From Ralstonia sp. TCR112 (lineage in GTDB: Bacteria > Pseudomonadota > Gammaproteobacteria > Burkholderiales > Burkholderiaceae): a DNA stretch of 62,947 nucleotides. The notes below the pieces were generated by a model. The model did no database searches and was not told where the DNA came from. It was given only the letters and a program-made list of their open reading frames with translations. Position 1 is the stretch's first letter. Every line of letters begins with the position of its first letter. Below, one piece after another: positions 45,960 through 58,332 of this stretch. The position numbers and the translations under genes were made by a program. Location: positions 1-62,947 of the forward strand of contig NZ_VOSS01000008.1 of NCBI RefSeq assembly GCF_007997035.1. Direction: 5' to 3'.

Positions 45960-46041
45960 ACCTGCGCAAGCGCATTTCGGCTTGATCGGCGTCAACCGCC
46001 CCCGGCGCTGCGAGGGATAGCGTGCAGGCAAAGGAGGCGGC

Positions 46042-51895: not shown

Positions 51896-51980
51896 GCGAT
51901 TTAAAAATCAAGGTCTTTACGACTCACCGACCACAATATGTAGTGCTAGTCTGACTCCATACCACTAGATGGAGTACCTC

Positions 51981-54044
51981 ATGACGGGCACACAGGTCAC
52001 CAGGCAAGTCACCAAGCGCGACGGTTCGTTGGCGTCGTTCGATGCGCAAAAGATCCACCAGGCCATCGCGGCAGCCGGCCAGGCCACCGGCGAATTCGAC
52101 GCCGTCGAGGCGCAGCGCCTGACCACCGGCGTGGTTGCACATCTCGCCCCGCTGCCCTGCCCCGGCATCGAAATCATCCAGAACTGTGTGGAAGAGGTGT
52201 TGGTCGACGCCGGCTATTGGCGCACCGCGCGCGCCTACATCGTCTACCGCGAGCAGCATGCCCGGCTGCGCTCGCTCAAGCACACGCTGGTCGATGTCGA
52301 GAGCACGATGGACGAGTACCTCGAGCAGCGCGACTGGCGCGTCAATGCCAACGCCAATCAGGGCTACAGCTTGGGCGGCCTGATCCTCAACGTGGCAGGC
52401 AAGGTCACGGCCAACTACTGGCTCTCTCACGTCTACAGTCCCGAAGCGGGCGCGGCGCACCGCGAGGGCGACCTCCACATCCACGATCTCGACATGCTTT
52501 CGGGCTACTGCGCAGGCTGGTCGTTGCGTCAGTTGCTGACGGAGGGATTCAACGGCGTGCCGGGCAAGGTGGAGGCGACGCCGCCGCGGCATATGTCCGC
52601 AGCGATCGGGCAGATCGTCAACTTCCTCGGCACCCTGCAAAACGAGTGGGCCGGCGCACAGGCGTTCAGCTCCTTCGATACGTACATGGCGCCGTTCATC
52701 CGCCGCGACGCGATGTCGTATGCGGCGGTCAAGCAGTCCATGCAGGAGCTGATCTACAACCTGAACGTGCCCAGCCGCTGGGGGACGCAAACGCCGTTCA
52801 CCAACCTCACGTTCGACTGGACGTGCCCAGCGGACCTGCGCGAACAGGTTCCGTACATCGGCGGCGAAGAGATGCCGTTCACCTACGGCAACCTCCAGCC
52901 CGAGATGGACATGATCAACCGCGCGTACATCGAGGTCATGATGGCGGGCGACGCGAAGGACCGCGCATTCACGTTTCCGATTCCCACCTACAACATCACG
53001 CCCGATTTCGATTGGGAACACCCGAACACCACGCTGCTGTTCGAGATGACGGCACGCTACGGGCTGCCCTACTTCCAGAACTTCCTGAATTCCGATCTGG
53101 AGCCGCACATGGTGCGCTCGATGTGCTGCCGCCTGCAGCTGGACCTGCGCGAGCTCCTCAAGCGCGGCAACGGGTTGTTTGGGTCGGCCGAGCAGACCGG
53201 TTCGATCGGGGTGGTGACGGTGAACTGCGCGCGATTGGGTTATCTCTACGCGGGCGATGAGGCGGCGCTGCTGGCGCGGCTGGATACGCTGCTTGCGCTC
53301 GGCCGCGACGTGCTGGAGGTGAAGCGCAAGTTTGTGCAGCGGCTGATCGACCAGGGGCTGTACCCGTACACGCGCCGCTACCTGGGCACGCTGCGCAACC
53401 ACTTCAGCACGCTCGGCGTGAACGGCATCAACGAGATGGTGCGCAACTTCACGCAAGATGCCGACGACATCACCACGCCATTCGGCCACGCCATGGCCGT
53501 GCGCCTGCTCGACCACGTGCGCCAGCGCATGACGGAATTCCAGGAGGCGACGGGGCACCTTTACAACCTCGAAGCCACGCCCGCGGAGGGCACGACTTAT
53601 CGCTTCGCCCGCGAAGACCGCAAGCGCTGGCCGGGCATCCTGCAGGCCGGCACGACAGCCCAGCCGTATTACACCAACTCCAGCCAGCTGCCCGTCGGCT
53701 ACACCGACGACCCGTTTGAAGCACTGGCGCGCCAGGAAGCGCTGCAGAGCAAATACACGGGCGGCACGGTGCTGCATCTGTACATGAACGAAGCCATCTC
53801 CTCGCCGCAGGCGTGCAAGGAGCTCGTGCGCCGCGCGTTGGCCAACTTCCGCCTGCCGTACATCACCATCACTCCGACGTTTTCGATCTGCCCGAAGCAC
53901 GGCTATCTGTCCGGCCATCACGCGTTCTGTCCGAAATGCGATGCAGAACTGCTGGCTCAGCAGCCTCACGGCAAGTGCGGGTGCGCAACGGCGGACACCC
54001 CAGGTTCTTCCACCCACCTCCATCACGAAGGAGCCTCCGTATGA
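51981..54044 (+). CDS. nrdD: Anaerobic ribonucleoside-triphosphate reductase catalytic chain, lacking the glycyl-radical motif
   Basis: 687-residue large part of class III ribonucleotide reductase, which reduces NTPs to dNTPs without oxygen. An N-terminal ATP-cone (VTKRDGSLASFDAQKIHQAI), the ten-stranded barrel body (YSLGGLILNVAGKVTANYW, LTFDWTCPADL, DLEPHMVRSMCCRLQLDLRE), and a C-terminal zinc site with C637xxH640 and C650xxC653 (CPKHGYLSGHHAFCPKC) are visible. After the zinc site family members continue into the RVxGYxxP glycyl-radical loop. Here the chain runs about 35 unrelated residues and stops. The radical motif is in the next, separate gene. Start 51981 has GGAG six bases upstream; 51969 does not. 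Confidence 0.93.
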   Translation: MTGTQVTRQVTKRDGSLASFDAQKIHQAIAAAGQATGEFDAVEAQRLTTGVVAHLAPLPCPGIEIIQNCVEEVLVDAGYWRTARAYIVYREQHARLRSLKHTLVDVESTMDEYLEQRDWRVNANANQGYSLGGLILNVAGKVTANYWLSHVYSPEAGAAHREGDLHIHDLDMLSGYCAGWSLRQLLTEGFNGVPGKVEATPPRHMSAAIGQIVNFLGTLQNEWAGAQAFSSFDTYMAPFIRRDAMSYAAVKQSMQELIYNLNVPSRWGTQTPFTNLTFDWTCPADLREQVPYIGGEEMPFTYGNLQPEMDMINRAYIEVMMAGDAKDRAFTFPIPTYNITPDFDWEHPNTTLLFEMTARYGLPYFQNFLNSDLEPHMVRSMCCRLQLDLRELLKRGNGLFGSAEQTGSIGVVTVNCARLGYLYAGDEAALLARLDTLLALGRDVLEVKRKFVQRLIDQGLYPYTRRYLGTLRNHFSTLGVNGINEMVRNFTQDADDITTPFGHAMAVRLLDHVRQRMTEFQEATGHLYNLEATPAEGTTYRFAREDRKRWPGILQAGTTAQPYYTNSSQLPVGYTDDPFEALARQEALQSKYTGGTVLHLYMNEAISSPQACKELVRRALANFRLPYITITPTFSICPKHGYLSGHHAFCPKCDAELLAQQPHGKCGCATADTPGSSTHLHHEGASV

Positions 54045-54217
54045 CTACCGTTGCACAAACCGCCAACCACACCGCTGCACTCGACGACAGCCAGCGCACG
54101 CGCTGCGAAGTCTGGACCCGCGTGATGGGTTATCACCGGCCCGTCAGCTCGTTCAACATCGGCAAGCAAGGGGAATTCTGTGAACGCCGCTTCTTTGTTG
54201 AAGACCGCGCCCGCTAA
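54041..54217 (+). CDS. Separate glycyl-radical peptide of class III ribonucleotide reductase
   Basis: 58-residue peptide carrying the C-terminal radical loop of NrdD as an independent gene: CEVWTRVMGYHRPVSSF followed by NIGKQGEFCERR. By alignment to class III enzymes, Gly30 in the VMGY motif would be the glycyl radical. It overlaps the nrdD stop by ATGA, but has its own ribosome binding site (AAGGAG seven bases upstream), so it is translated in its own right. A simple frameshift would join the two halves through a linker of some 55 extra residues, which argues for a real split. Overlaps the nrdG start region. Confidence 0.8.
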   Translation: MTTVAQTANHTAALDDSQRTRCEVWTRVMGYHRPVSSFNIGKQGEFCERRFFVEDRAR

Positions 54218-54893
54218 GCCAACGCACTGCCTGCCGCCGGCCATCGGCGGCCTGGCGCCGTTCTCCAGCGTCGACTGGCCCGGACAGCTTGCGGCAGTCG
54301 TGTTTGTCGCGGGCTGCCCGTGGCGCTGCCATTACTGCCATAACCCGCACTTGCAGACGCGGGCGCGCACGCTGGATTGGGACGATGTCTTCGCGTTTTT
54401 GCAGCGTCGCGTGGGGCTGCTCGATGCGGTGGTCTTCTCCGGCGGTGAACCGCTGAGCGAGCCTCATCTGCCGCAACTGATGCGCGACGTGCGCGCGCTC
54501 GGCTACAGGATTGGCCTGCACACCGGCGGCATTTATCCGGCGCGCCTGGCCGACGTACTGCCGCTTGTGGACTGGGTGGGACTCGACATCAAGACGAGCG
54601 CACCGCGCTACGACGCGCTCACATGCCGCCGCGGCAGCGCTGCGCCGGTCGATGCGTGCCTGGATCTTCTGCTGCAGAACGGCAGCGCATTTGAGTGCCG
54701 CACCACGTGGCACCCCGATTGGCTGCCAGAACCCGAGCTTCTTGCGCTGGCGCAAAACCTGAGCCTGCGCGGCGTGAAACACTACGCATTACAAGCCTAC
54801 CGAAGTGCCCCCGGAACCCCGGCCATCACGCTGCCCAGCGAGGGCACCCAGCGCGCATTGGCCGCCTGCTTTTCTTCTTTCTGTTGCCGGTGA
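54180..54893 (+). CDS. nrdG: Anaerobic ribonucleotide reductase activating enzyme (radical SAM)
   Basis: 237-residue radical-SAM activase that generates the glycyl radical. The [4Fe-4S] motif is C46PWRC50HYC53HNP; SAM-binding Gly motif VFSGGEPL follows. GTG start at 54180, overlapping the 58-residue gene by 38 bp, with AGGGGAA upstream. Ends 4 bp before the Crp/Fnr gene. In this operon its substrate would be the separate radical peptide docked on NrdD. Confidence 0.92.
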   Translation: MNAASLLKTAPAKPTHCLPPAIGGLAPFSSVDWPGQLAAVVFVAGCPWRCHYCHNPHLQTRARTLDWDDVFAFLQRRVGLLDAVVFSGGEPLSEPHLPQLMRDVRALGYRIGLHTGGIYPARLADVLPLVDWVGLDIKTSAPRYDALTCRRGSAAPVDACLDLLLQNGSAFECRTTWHPDWLPEPELLALAQNLSLRGVKHYALQAYRSAPGTPAITLPSEGTQRALAACFSSFCCR

Positions 54894-54897
54894 CACC

Positions 54898-55575
54898 ATG
54901 CAAGACCCCCTTGATGTGGGCGCTCTGCTCAAGCACAGCCCGCTGTTCCAGGACTTCGACGACGGTGACATGGCCGTGCTCACGCGTGAGAGCCACGCTG
55001 TGCGCGTGTCACGGCACGACTTCGCGTTTCACCGTGGCGATCGCGCCGATGGCTTCTATGTCGTGGTGGTCGGAGCCATCAAGCTCGTATTGCCGGGCAC
55101 ACACGGCCAATGCAAGGTCATCGAGTTCTTCGGACCTGGCGAGTGCTTTGGCGAGCCCTTCATGTTCCTGAACCGCCCCTATGCGGCGGACGCGCAGGCC
55201 ATGGAAGACAGCCTGCTGGTCTGGATCGGCAAGCGCGCCATCGACGATGCGCTGCACGTGCATCCGCGCCTGGCGCGGCAGATGCTCGCAGGGCTGTCAG
55301 CTCGCCTGCACACATTGATGTGCGACATCGAAACCGTGAACCTGCAAAGCGCGAATGAACGGCTGATCGGGTATCTGCTCTCGCTGCCGCGCAAGTTTGA
55401 CCGCACGCGGTTTCCATGCAGCAAGAGCCTGGTCGCGTCCAAGCTTGGGCTCGCGCCGGCCACGCTTTCCCGTACGCTGCGTCAGTTGGTTCGCGACGGG
55501 TTGATCCGGGTGGAGGGCCGCGAGGTGGTCATCCCAAACACCACGGCGTTGCAGCGTCAGCTCATCGCTGGATAA
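54898..55575 (+). CDS. Crp/Fnr-family transcriptional regulator
   Basis: 225-residue regulator. N-terminal cyclic-nucleotide-binding-fold sensor domain (residues 15-130, with GDRADGFYVVVVGAIKLVLP and FGPGECFGEPFMFLNRPYAA) and C-terminal helix-turn-helix (SLVASKLGLAPATLSRTLRQL). There is no N-terminal Cys cluster of the FNR type, so it is more like DNR/NnrR, which sense nitric oxide through heme; that is inference. It follows nrdG by 4 bp and likely binds the TTGAC-N4-GTCAA site upstream of nrdD. Confidence 0.88.
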   Translation: MQDPLDVGALLKHSPLFQDFDDGDMAVLTRESHAVRVSRHDFAFHRGDRADGFYVVVVGAIKLVLPGTHGQCKVIEFFGPGECFGEPFMFLNRPYAADAQAMEDSLLVWIGKRAIDDALHVHPRLARQMLAGLSARLHTLMCDIETVNLQSANERLIGYLLSLPRKFDRTRFPCSKSLVASKLGLAPATLSRTLRQLVRDGLIRVEGREVVIPNTTALQRQLIAG

Positions 55576-55595: not shown

Positions 55596-55985
55596 TCAAT
55601 CGCCAGCGGCGTCGAGGCGATGCTGCAGCGTGTTGACGGCGTCGTCCACCAGCGCGGCGGCGACACGCAGTTCTTCGTCACTGCAATCGGCGTGATAGCG
55701 CTTTTTGGCGCCAGATTGATTGAGCACGAGATGAATGTCCGGCGCCACGCCCGCCGTTGCCAGGCAGGCCCTGACGCACGCCAGCGCGCAACCGTCGAGC
55801 GCGAGGATGGGCCGCCCGCTGCGTGCTGTCTTGACCAACGCGCGCACCCCGCCGCCGACGCCGCTGATGCAGGACATCTCCGCCCTGCCCGCGCGATCGA
55901 GATCGACGGCCAAGCGGTTTGCCGCCTGCGCGACGCTCGAACAACCCGAGCACGCATAGACGAGCGGCAACGCACGTGATGACAT
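55596..55985 (-). CDS. DGC-domain (putative zinc-binding) protein
   Basis: 129-residue protein with the DGC pattern: YACSGCSSVAQAANRLAVDL, then CISGVGG and ILALDGCALACVRACL, giving several conserved Cys, probably a metal or Fe-S site. The family is of unknown function and found mainly in anaerobic or nitrate-respiring bacteria. Start at 55985 follows GAGGGG. It is the last gene of the minus-strand ubi operon and is convergent with the Crp/Fnr gene. Confidence 0.8.
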   Translation of the reverse strand: MSSRALPLVYACSGCSSVAQAANRLAVDLDRAGRAEMSCISGVGGGVRALVKTARSGRPILALDGCALACVRACLATAGVAPDIHLVLNQSGAKKRYHADCSDEELRVAAALVDDAVNTLQHRLDAAGD

Positions 55986-55998
55986 GGCGCCCCTCGTC

Positions 55999-56424
55999 CT
56001 ACCGCGATTGCCAGCGGGCAAGCCACGCCGGGCGTGCGGCCGCATCAAGCCAGTTCTTGACGATCAGGCCAAGCTCCGTGTCGCCTGCAATCTTGAGGCG
56101 GCGCTGGAAAAACAGCGTGTCCGCATCGGCAGTCCCGCGAATGAGCGCCACAAAATCGCCCACGCCTGCACGCAACTCCAGCTCGGGCTCAGGGCTGGAC
56201 GCAGAAAGCATGTGAAACGCTCCGCCGCGGCAGCAAAAACAGGCGCGCAGGCCCAGGTCCTCCACGGTGATGGCGAACCGGCGTCCGTCCAACTCCGGCG
56301 GCGGCGTCAGCCAGGAAAGACGCCGGGCCAGATCGAGCCCCATCACAAAGGGAAACGACGTCACCGGTGCCGGCAGGCGACGCGCCATGCGAACAAACAC
56401 TTCGGGTGGGCGCAGGCGCGTCAT
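55999..56424 (-). CDS. ubiT: UbiT, SCP2-domain accessory factor of anaerobic ubiquinone synthesis
   Basis: 141-residue SCP2 (sterol-carrier-like) lipid-binding protein. In E. coli UbiT works with UbiU and UbiV to make ubiquinone without oxygen. Seen: [20 protein letters not shown] at the entrance and the SCP2 core [20 protein letters not shown] and [18 protein letters not shown](Q) with the second strand-helix pair. Start 56424 overlaps the ubiV stop (ATGA) with GGAG upstream. Confidence 0.9.
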
Positions 56425-57305
56425 TGCGGCATCTCCAGCCACTCAATGCCGGACTGCCCGTGCCAGTAGCCGTTGCAGCGTCCAATGCCTTCGGGAGGCT
56501 GCACGTCCCGCACGGGCAGACCCAGGCGCAGGGCATCCAGTGCCGCCACGGCGTCGAGCGTGCCCCGCGATTGCGGGCTGACGCGCAGCACCTTCACGCC
56601 CAGCGCAGACAGCGCCGGCGCCTGATCGAGAATGTCGAGGCATTGCCCCGATTGCGTCTGGATACCGTTGATGGCGAGGAACTCCTGCCCTTCGCGCGTG
56701 CGCACCGCAAGGCCGTCGGGATGCTCAATGCAGCGGAAGCCGCAGTCGTCCTTATTCAGGCGAAAGTGCCGCGCCGTAAAGCAACGTGCGGAGAATGCCA
56801 GCGGCAAGCGCCCCCACACCATCGCCTCGATCGCCAATTCGGCGGGCTTCTCGCGCATCAGGTCGGCCAGTGTGGCCTGGCTCATCTCCAGCGGCATGAC
56901 CGCGCGCACCGCGCCCAGCCCAGCCAGCCATGCCAGCGTCGCGCCGTGATACGCGTTGCAATGCGGCCCTGCAACGAACGGCCGGCCTTTCAGCAACCGT
57001 ACGGCGCCAAGCTCGCCGGCTTCCACCATCCAGGCGTCTTGCTGACATTGCTTGCGCAACGCCTGCGCCTCGGCACTCGTTTCGATGAGCGTGCGCGTCG
57101 ACAGCACCACCGACTTGCCGGCCTCGCGCAGCATGGCCGCGATATCGAGCCAGTCGTCCGCCCGCAATTCATGGCGACGGCTGCAAACCGTTTCGCCCAC
57201 GTAGACGATGTCGACCGGGCTGGCCGCGACTTCTGCATAGAAATCAAACGTCTGTAGCCGCGGCCAGTAGTACAGCAGCGGACCAAGCGAAATTTCGTAA
57301 GACAT
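56421..57305 (-). CDS. ubiV: UbiV, O2-independent ubiquinone hydroxylation subunit (U32 family)
   Basis: 294-residue U32-family [4Fe-4S] protein; with UbiU it hydroxylates the ubiquinone ring using prephenate rather than oxygen. Cluster cysteines C41, C175, C188 and C192 match the E. coli UbiV set (C39, C180, C193, C197) with constant offsets. Start [15 protein letters not shown] agrees with the family; the frame extends upstream but into the ubiU gene. Translationally coupled to ubiT. Confidence 0.95.
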
Positions 57306-57315
57306 GATGTGCCTT

Positions 57316-58332
57316 CTATTTCCAGGGCCGATCAAACGCGCCCTGCGTGACGTGTGCGCCTTCGGCGTGGCGCACGAGTGCAGCCTGCCAGTCAGGCTTG
57401 ACGGAGAAGCGCGCCGGGTCCGCCTGAGCGGCATCCAATGCAGCGCGCAACGTGGCCACCACCTGCGCGACATACGCCGGACTGCGCTGGCGCCCCTCGA
57501 TCTTGATCGCCGATACGCCCATGGCGAGCAGCCGCGGCAACAGGCTCAGTGCGTTGAGGCTCGTGGGTTCTTCGAGCACGTGGTCGACCTCGCCGTCGAC
57601 CAGGAAGCGCCCCTTGCACAACGTCGGATACCCAGCCGGCTCGCCCGGTGCGTATTGGTCGATCATGATGTTGTTCAGGCGCGCATCCAGACTGCCACCC
57701 CGCTCTACCCAGCGCACCGCATGCGCCGGCGAACACACGCCCTTGTTGTTGGGCGAATCGCCGGTGGCATACGACGACAACAGGCAGCGCCCTTCGGCCA
57801 TCACGCACAGGCTGCCAAAACCGAACACTTCGATCTGCACCGAGGTCTGCTTGATCACGCGTTCCACTTCAGTCAAGGTCAGCACACGCGGCAGTACGGC
57901 CCGGTGGATGCCGAACTGCTCGCGCATCAGCTCGATGGCGTCCGCATGCGTGGCAGAACCCTGCACGGACAGGTGCAGGCGAAGGTTTGGATAGCGGTCG
58001 CGCGCATAGGCCATCAGCCCAGGATCGGCCAGGATCACGGCATCGGCGCCCAGCATGTAGGCAGCATCGATTGCCATGCGCCACTCGATGGCACGGCCCG
58101 GCTGCGGAAACGTGTTGATGGCAAACAGCACCTGGCGCCCTTTCCGATGGGCAAATTCGACGCCGGCGCGGATGTCGCTCTCGGTAAAGTTCAGGCCGGC
58201 GAAGTTGCGCGCGTTGGTCGCATTCTTCAAGCCGAGATAGACCGTGTCGGCCCCGGCCTCCACCGCAGCCTTGAGTGCGGCCAGGCTGCCGGCGGGCGCC
58301 ACGAGTTCAATGGGGGAAGCGTTCTGTGTCAT
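57316..58332 (-). CDS. ubiU: UbiU, O2-independent ubiquinone hydroxylation subunit (U32 family)
   Basis: 338-residue U32-family protein, partner of UbiV. Cysteines C176, C183, C200 and C239 correspond to E. coli C169, C176, C193 and C232 at a constant offset of 7, so the [4Fe-4S] site is complete. Other family marks are [21 protein letters not shown] and [15 protein letters not shown]. 10 bp upstream of ubiV. TTGAC-GGAA-CGCAA on the minus strand at 58368-58381 is a partial FNR/DNR-like match about 42 bp before the start; listed as a note, not as a firm site. Confidence 0.95.

Follow-up and report, generated by a model that had tools for sequence, protein, structure and literature searches.

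In the available portion of PMC12662201, known glycyl-radical enzymes of the kind considered here carry the radical on the catalytic chain, from which it must flip out for charging. According to the accessible part of PMC2795772, oxygen cleaves class III enzymes at the radical glycine. As of 2021, only YfiD and Y06I had been validated as spare parts, according to the excerpted text of PMC8683613. The NrdDG system of Cupriavidus necator H16 was reported to be essential for complete denitrification, and the genetics, in the portion of that paper at hand, does not single out the small ORF treated below (PMC2864759). Plasmid pHG1 of the same strain, as Ralstonia eutropha H16, is listed with NrdD and NrdG only in the available section of a 2010 publication (PMC3019208). 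Papers on nrdDG of Pseudomonas aeruginosa call the class II reductase split and, in their available parts, do not call the class III enzyme split. The open-library literature, in the partial texts that it offers, yielded no split class III reductase of such a kind and no free phage NrdD radical peptide; an earlier mention is possible.

Here, we describe a locus in a stretch of 62,947 nucleotides from Ralstonia sp. TCR112, referred to as the window. We are highly confident that it encodes a three-gene class III reductase composed of nrdD, a glycyl-radical peptide gene and nrdG, in which the radical cofactor is a separable peptide. Beyond what had originally been predicted for this DNA, the split form is widespread and phages carry the peptide alone.

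Gene order and domain content of the locus

The window carries nrdD, an ORF for a peptide of 58 aa and nrdG in this order, all on the forward strand (Table 1). The first two genes overlap by 4 nt (ATGA), the peptide starting at that ATG, and nrdG overlaps the peptide gene by 38 nt. An alternative in-frame ATG at 51969 would give an NrdD of 691 aa. NrdD scored 1134 bits with NF006126 (cut-off, 548) and 575 bits with PF13597, as is characteristic of the barrel. NrdG, the dedicated radical-SAM activase, reached 181 bits with TIGR02495 (cut-off, 131), and its gene adjoins the peptide gene. The peptide shares 93% identity with its counterpart in Ralstonia pickettii H2Cu5.

Table 1. Features of the nrdD locus and their positions in the window
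Feature	Position	Strand	Remarks
FNR/Dnr-type palindrome TTGAC-CGGG-GTCAA	51882..51895	+	85 nt 5' of nrdD start
nrdD	51981..54044	+	687 aa, TGA stop; class III ribonucleotide reductase catalytic chain; NF006126 and Pfam matches
AAGGAG Shine-Dalgarno of the small ORF	54028..54033	+	within the 3' end of nrdD
Glycyl-radical peptide gene, second cistron	54041..54217	+	58 aa; NRDD 532-562/562
Gly30 codon, predicted radical glycine in RVMGY	54128..54130	+	from loop comparison
nrdG, radical-SAM activase	54180..54893	+	GTG start; TIGR02495
Crp/Fnr-family regulator gene	54898..55575	+	cNMP_binding, HTH_Crp_2; directly 3' of nrdG

As proposed in the original prediction, NrdD stops after its zinc ribbon and lacks an RVxGY loop: it comprises an ATP-cone and covers positions 2-528 of the 562 in Pfam NRDD. 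The loop is encoded by the next ORF, which has its own AAGGAG and the ATGA overlap that had been noticed; its product matches the remaining end of the profile (E 1.5e-7), PF13597 being its sole Pfam match, and the two ORFs together tile a single NRDD profile. The glycyl-radical loop that a class III NrdD bears on the same polypeptide is thus found on a separate ORF, so that the pair, and not nrdD alone, constitutes the class III enzyme.

Cys177 and Cys416 of NrdD, which we take from their family position to be the active-site cysteines, were invariant in 37 aligned cores. The same was true of Cys637, His640, Cys650 and Cys653, the predicted zinc ribbon next to the radical loop, in which one ligand is a histidine. 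The radical glycine was present in all of the distinct split bacterial (82/82), viral (59/59) and fused (12/12) loops compared, counts that are to be read knowing that the loops were picked with a pattern already containing GY. Seventeen of 33 positions were invariant in the 82 distinct split loops, including Cys22, Glu23, Trp25 to Tyr31, Arg33, Pro34, Phe38, Asn39, Gly41, Lys42, Glu45, Arg49 and Glu54. Cys22 (window positions 54104-54106), eight residues before the radical glycine, was seen in 82/82 split, 55/59 viral and 9/12 fused loops; the three fused loops without it, from the outlying loci L291, L292 and L226, have a threonine instead.

Profile searches of the window's genome (5.44 Mb) revealed no other PF13597 (NRDD) match and no PF01228 domain, the PFL-type radical domain, in agreement with the proposal that the peptide is the only radical carrier. 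Since this genome is 97.6% complete in 292 contigs, a full-length NrdD elsewhere in it is unlikely.

The palindrome upstream of nrdD, which we take to be an FNR/Dnr site, fits anaerobic control. The motif TTGAYNNNNRTCAA was counted twice in the window, with 0.08 occurrences expected, and a second FNR/Dnr-type palindrome, TTGATCGGCGTCAA, lies at 45982-45995. Beyond nrdG and the Crp/Fnr gene, positions 55596-58332 hold DGC-domain, SCP2-domain and U32-peptidase genes, which together resemble the anaerobic ubiquinone genes ubiT, ubiU and ubiV; a second U32-like ORF (57316-58332) was recognized by eye only.

Two intact and conserved cistrons with separate translation signals

We searched 399 genomes of the order with PF13597, of which 126 matched, and a split core was present in 100 of the 399. 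A search with A1, a profile built from 22 peptides, found the peptide in 99 of these 100 genomes, the exception being G195, whose core is cut by a contig end. The two-gene form is thus conserved with its ORF intact, a test that the original prediction had named beforehand. The position of the loop was inspected at 109 loci. Ninety-eight were split; besides the window, these were 93 loci from genomes of the order and four from named plasmids. Eight were fused, of which six belong to a single genus, one encodes an E. coli-type NrdD and one is from an Actinomyces plasmid, and three had no loop in the fetched stretch. These three are also split: the peptide adjoins nrdG about 9 kb from nrdD in G008 and on a different contig from nrdD in G057, and in G156 it lies at a contig start, with nrdD reaching a contig end. 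In G065, 2.3 kb separate nrdD from the peptide, which again abuts nrdG. Sixteen further genomes matched A1 without having a split core, namely, six with a fused form, nine with an NrdD of another type (weak matches) and G153 (580 contigs), in which peptide and nrdG were found and a core was not.

A similar picture emerged from the genome collection, where the best 80 of at least 577 stretches, those nearest to the window's peptide, comprised 78 split loci (counting L227, a partial match), one fused locus from Sanguibacter hominis and one without a core in the locus. The two nearest named loci among these 80, both from Ralstonia (L118 and L119), agree with the window in layout and in the 74-nt offset from the nrdD stop to the loop. 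Plasmid records with the split operon included C. necator H16 (pHG1), Bradyrhizobium, Azospira, Shinella, Paracoccus, C. metallidurans and Sulfuricurvum of the Campylobacterota, the last with a 4-nt overlap. In C. necator H16, which shares the layout of the window, the small ORF is H16_RS32675 and has 66 codons. A Thiothrix plasmid record has the peptide adjoining nrdG, and Pseudomonas yangonensis is split as well (L176). The small ORF already bears the NCBI name "nrdD, anaerobic ribonucleoside-triphosphate reductase" in several records, so that both ORFs can be seen in the annotation.

Relative to nrdD, the loop was in frame 0, 1 or 2 in 33, 34 and 31 of the 98 split loci, respectively, and began 43 to 2388 nt past the nrdD stop, at more than 200 nt in nine of them; this count skipped L002, which duplicates the window, and L116 and L117, whose matches were bad or truncated; five loci (L006, L017, L018, L019 and L021) had no core match at 1e-20, and N runs at the end of nrdD make the frame and offset of L088 unsure. 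The separate ORF is preceded by translation signals of its own. An SD-like tetramer was located upstream in 25/25 single-start split loci compared to 15% of start-like triplets, and a strong SD pentamer was located in 23/25 compared to a background of 2.3%; L379, where the pattern missed the loop and the peptide is present, was left unscored. Averaged over pairs with a pS of 0.05 to 0.6 only, the pN/pS of the radical domain was 0.04 in Ralstonia (2 pairs) and 0.15 in Achromobacter (21 pairs). Values for wider groups, 0.26 for the Duganella group (24 pairs) and 0.38 for all named loci (1264 pairs), are higher, silent sites being near saturation. For the whole CDS of three Ralstonia peptides (pS, 0.05 to 0.13; pN, 0.030 to 0.037), the ratio was not low in every pair and is less clear because the N-terminal third of the peptide varies. 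Fewer amino-acid-changing than silent differences, together with the conservation in 99/100 genomes and the ribosome-binding sites at 25/25 loci, support the two-polypeptide enzyme that had been proposed.

A frameshift, stop-codon read-through or sequencing error, with one continuous NrdD as the real product, would be in line with the ATGA overlap of the window ORFs and with the existence of fused homologues. Moreover, 33 of the 98 loci share a frame by chance, and in six genomes of the order the alignment runs through a single stop. However, frames and offsets vary freely, and unlinked and rearranged copies exist, which led us to reject sequencing error and frameshift. Because frames and distances vary among the split loci, we also excluded in-frame read-through as a general mechanism, the six genomes that align across one stop notwithstanding. 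The peptide has its own SD and start codon, and the joint would be of odd length, as had been pointed out: about 55 residues would separate the last zinc ligand, Cys653, from Cys22 of the peptide, compared to natural joints of 3 (L004), 10 (L007) and 11 (L197) residues in fused relatives. A single continuous product is, in our estimation, hardly credible. What we observed are two intact cistrons that are conserved and linked and that have separate translation signals.

A continuous NrdD in close relatives, named at the outset as possible counterevidence, was found in part: fused forms do occur in other genera, some of them nested among split ones, but the nearest Ralstonia loci are split. Other plasmid records with the fused form came from Actinomyces oris, Acidiphilium and Geoalkalibacter, in the last of which (L276) the loop reads GF. 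The fused relatives indicate that loop and barrel belong together. In a tree of 100 cores, which has several long branches and rough bootstrap values and omits L292 because its branch is long, the fused or split label requires five changes, and well-supported branches make at least four of these unavoidable. Two groups of fused cores, namely a genus of the order and Actinomyces with Sanguibacter, are nested in a well-supported and otherwise split clade. Three of the six fused sequences of that genus keep RQPCE-like text before the loop (L003 and L007; RHQDCE in L010), as split peptides do. From this we infer splitting followed by occasional re-fusion.

Peptide copies in phages and mobile elements

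Orphan peptides without an adjoining nrdD or nrdG were first met at five loci (L282 to L286). One is flanked by a lysozyme gene and a spanin-like ORF, and holin and integrase genes are close by (L283); another adjoins a phage virion-morphogenesis gene (L284), and a third (L285) adjoins AcaB, which we take to be an ICE or plasmid regulator. No phage gene was found in the part of L282 that was read. The orphan peptide at L286 (6611-11073) has a RecT gene and the gene for a large reductase chain of class I/II type in its vicinity; this may be a mobile element serving two reductase classes.

Extra copies of the peptide occur in at least 7 of the 100 genomes with a split core (G078, G106, G173, G247, G258 with two, G335 and G362). 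G258 possesses three peptides in all, one in its own operon (L046), one prophage-like (L284) and one ICE-like (L285). Phage-family neighbors, encoding endolysin, helicase and RecJ-like proteins, accompany the extra copies in G335, G078 and G106. In G173, the extra peptide (L380, 3000-6400) is an intact ORF beside a decayed second nrdD and an nrdG remnant. When seven extra copies were compared with 94 cellular peptides, the peptide of the own host ranked 1, 3, 4, 3, 1, 8 and 1; the extra copies are thus host-like.

Such copies, phage-borne or ICE-like and additional to a complete set of the host, would agree with a spare part similar to GrcA/YfiD, that is, a dispensable peptide that only rescues oxygen-cut enzyme. 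The peptide is of the same size class and follows the same logic, and spare parts for other glycyl-radical enzymes were deemed possible in the available text of PMC8683613. However, in split genomes the loop is always absent from the core chain, so that there is nothing intact to rescue; the peptide co-occurs with the split core in all but one of the 100 genomes, and the window's genome has no second NRDD-type carrier. We consider a spare-part role very unlikely for the peptide of the operon, and the idea may apply to the extra copies.

When IMG/VR was scanned with A1, 176 stretches matched, and 147 of them were confirmed to encode the peptide. Among the best 80 of these 147, neither an nrdD core nor nrdG was found beside the peptide in any stretch (80/80; up to 6 kb on each side). 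Whole records covered 50 of the best 80 stretches; all 50 had exactly one NRDD match, the terminal piece, and none of the 50 contained NrdG in our search, some of these records possibly being fragments. The NRDD core itself was confirmed in only four viral stretches, two of them with the peptide alongside, which gives a rough contrast of 147 to 4, as the search patterns differ. We rejected host contamination of the viral contigs, since a fragment of a host operon would carry the neighboring core and a core adjoined the peptide in 0/80 stretches.

In one viral contig (L303), the peptide gene is part of a replication cassette in the order clamp, DNA polymerase, orf164, peptide, orf129, clamp loader and then UvsX-like recombinase, an order that L339 and L365 keep at 34 to 84% protein identity. 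Other viral neighbors were replication initiator, primase, helicase, tape measure and tail fiber genes, and some had no PHROG match. Among viral peptides, pN/pS was 0.18 for the 67 pairs of one group, 0.46 for the 2 pairs of a second group and 0.43 for all 240 pairs, and a strong SD preceded 15 of 30 single-start viral peptides compared to a background of 3.9%. The window peptide matches phrog_4132, a phage family without annotated function (E 3.5e-8), as did all six viral peptides tried. By DNA similarity search, the window peptide had no match at 1e-3 in the phage collection; two viral peptides compared with that collection matched only the ANMV-1 virus, apart from weak or full-length NrdD matches. 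This archaeal virus (KP703175; L376, 4710-5144) encodes a standalone protein of 144 aa with a CxxC...CxxC part and CEMYSRIVGYLRPV and no barrel, predicted to be the whole NrdD radical domain alone, the zinc-ribbon-like part included.

Because no core or NrdG was found on the viral stretches examined, the targets of the phage peptide must, whatever its action, be host proteins, and the same absence would suit decoys or inhibitors of the host enzyme that do not serve as cofactors. On the other hand, the radical glycine and the residues of the docking half are equally conserved in viral and bacterial peptides, and a decoy would need them only in part; the three related contigs, moreover, keep the gene in place within their DNA-replication cassette. 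Decoys therefore seem rather unlikely to us. A further reading, whose chances we see as evenly balanced, is that the cofactor is a gene product that exists free, can be exchanged and is mobile. Bacteria would maintain it as a subunit of its own next to nrdG, whereas phages and an ICE-like element would have this part alone and would plug their 6-kDa product into the core and activase of the host, securing or renewing dNTP synthesis during anoxic replication, as a reductase counterpart of T4 Y06I.

Proposed mechanism and comparison with known systems

Homology with ordinary NrdD suggests how the peptide might dock, carry the radical and be exchanged. Its GK-rich C-terminal half would occupy the place in the barrel that ordinary NrdD fills with its C-terminal radical domain. 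With S-adenosylmethionine, NrdG would take a hydrogen from Gly30 of the bound or free peptide, and the glycyl radical would pass to the barrel cysteine, Cys416, starting ribonucleotide reduction. In the presence of oxygen, the peptide would be cleaved at Gly30, whereupon a fresh 6.6-kDa peptide could replace the cut one and the 76-kDa chain would not have to be remade.

With a natural two-chain version, one can ask directly which form of the domain, free or bound, is activated, whether oxygen damage is followed by separate turnover of the radical part and what the basis of recognition between loop and barrel is. It would also give a name to the unannotated family phrog_4132 and would point to a way in which phages tap anaerobic dNTP synthesis via a gene of about 150 to 270 bases. 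Many denitrifiers, C. necator H16 included, appear to depend on a small ORF that is easily missed in knockouts and expression constructs.

The fused NrdD proteins of NF006126/PRK08270 (Sanguibacter hominis L197, Actinomyces oris L036 and Acidiphilium L277) share with this system the barrel, the CxxH...CxxC ribbon, the CE[VI]WTRVMGY loop and NrdG, and many members have the ATP-cone in common with the window NrdD. In these proteins, loop and barrel form one chain with a short joint, whereas the window has two cistrons. Fragmented phage nrdD genes are likewise in pieces; according to the accessible part of PMC3653736, however, introns, inteins and homing endonucleases interrupt a full nrdD there, whereas the phages found here carry the loop alone and no core. 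The class II reductase NrdJa/NrdJb of P. aeruginosa is also made from two consecutive, cooperating ORFs, but it is split at the C-terminal turnover part and uses a B12 radical, as far as the available portions of PMC4009431 and PMC9669993 describe it; the split point here is different and the predicted radical is a glycyl radical. GrcA (E. coli YfiD and T4 Y06I) is likewise a small free glycyl-radical domain that completes a larger chain, and phage versions of it exist, as described in the excerpts of PMC8683613. The window peptide is not of this type, since it has no PF01228 domain and belongs to a core without a loop of its own and to a genome without a second NRDD match. GrcA, by that description, has a PFL-type domain and is a backup to an intact enzyme, whereas the window peptide is of the NRDD type and is predicted to be the sole radical carrier, encoded in its own operon.
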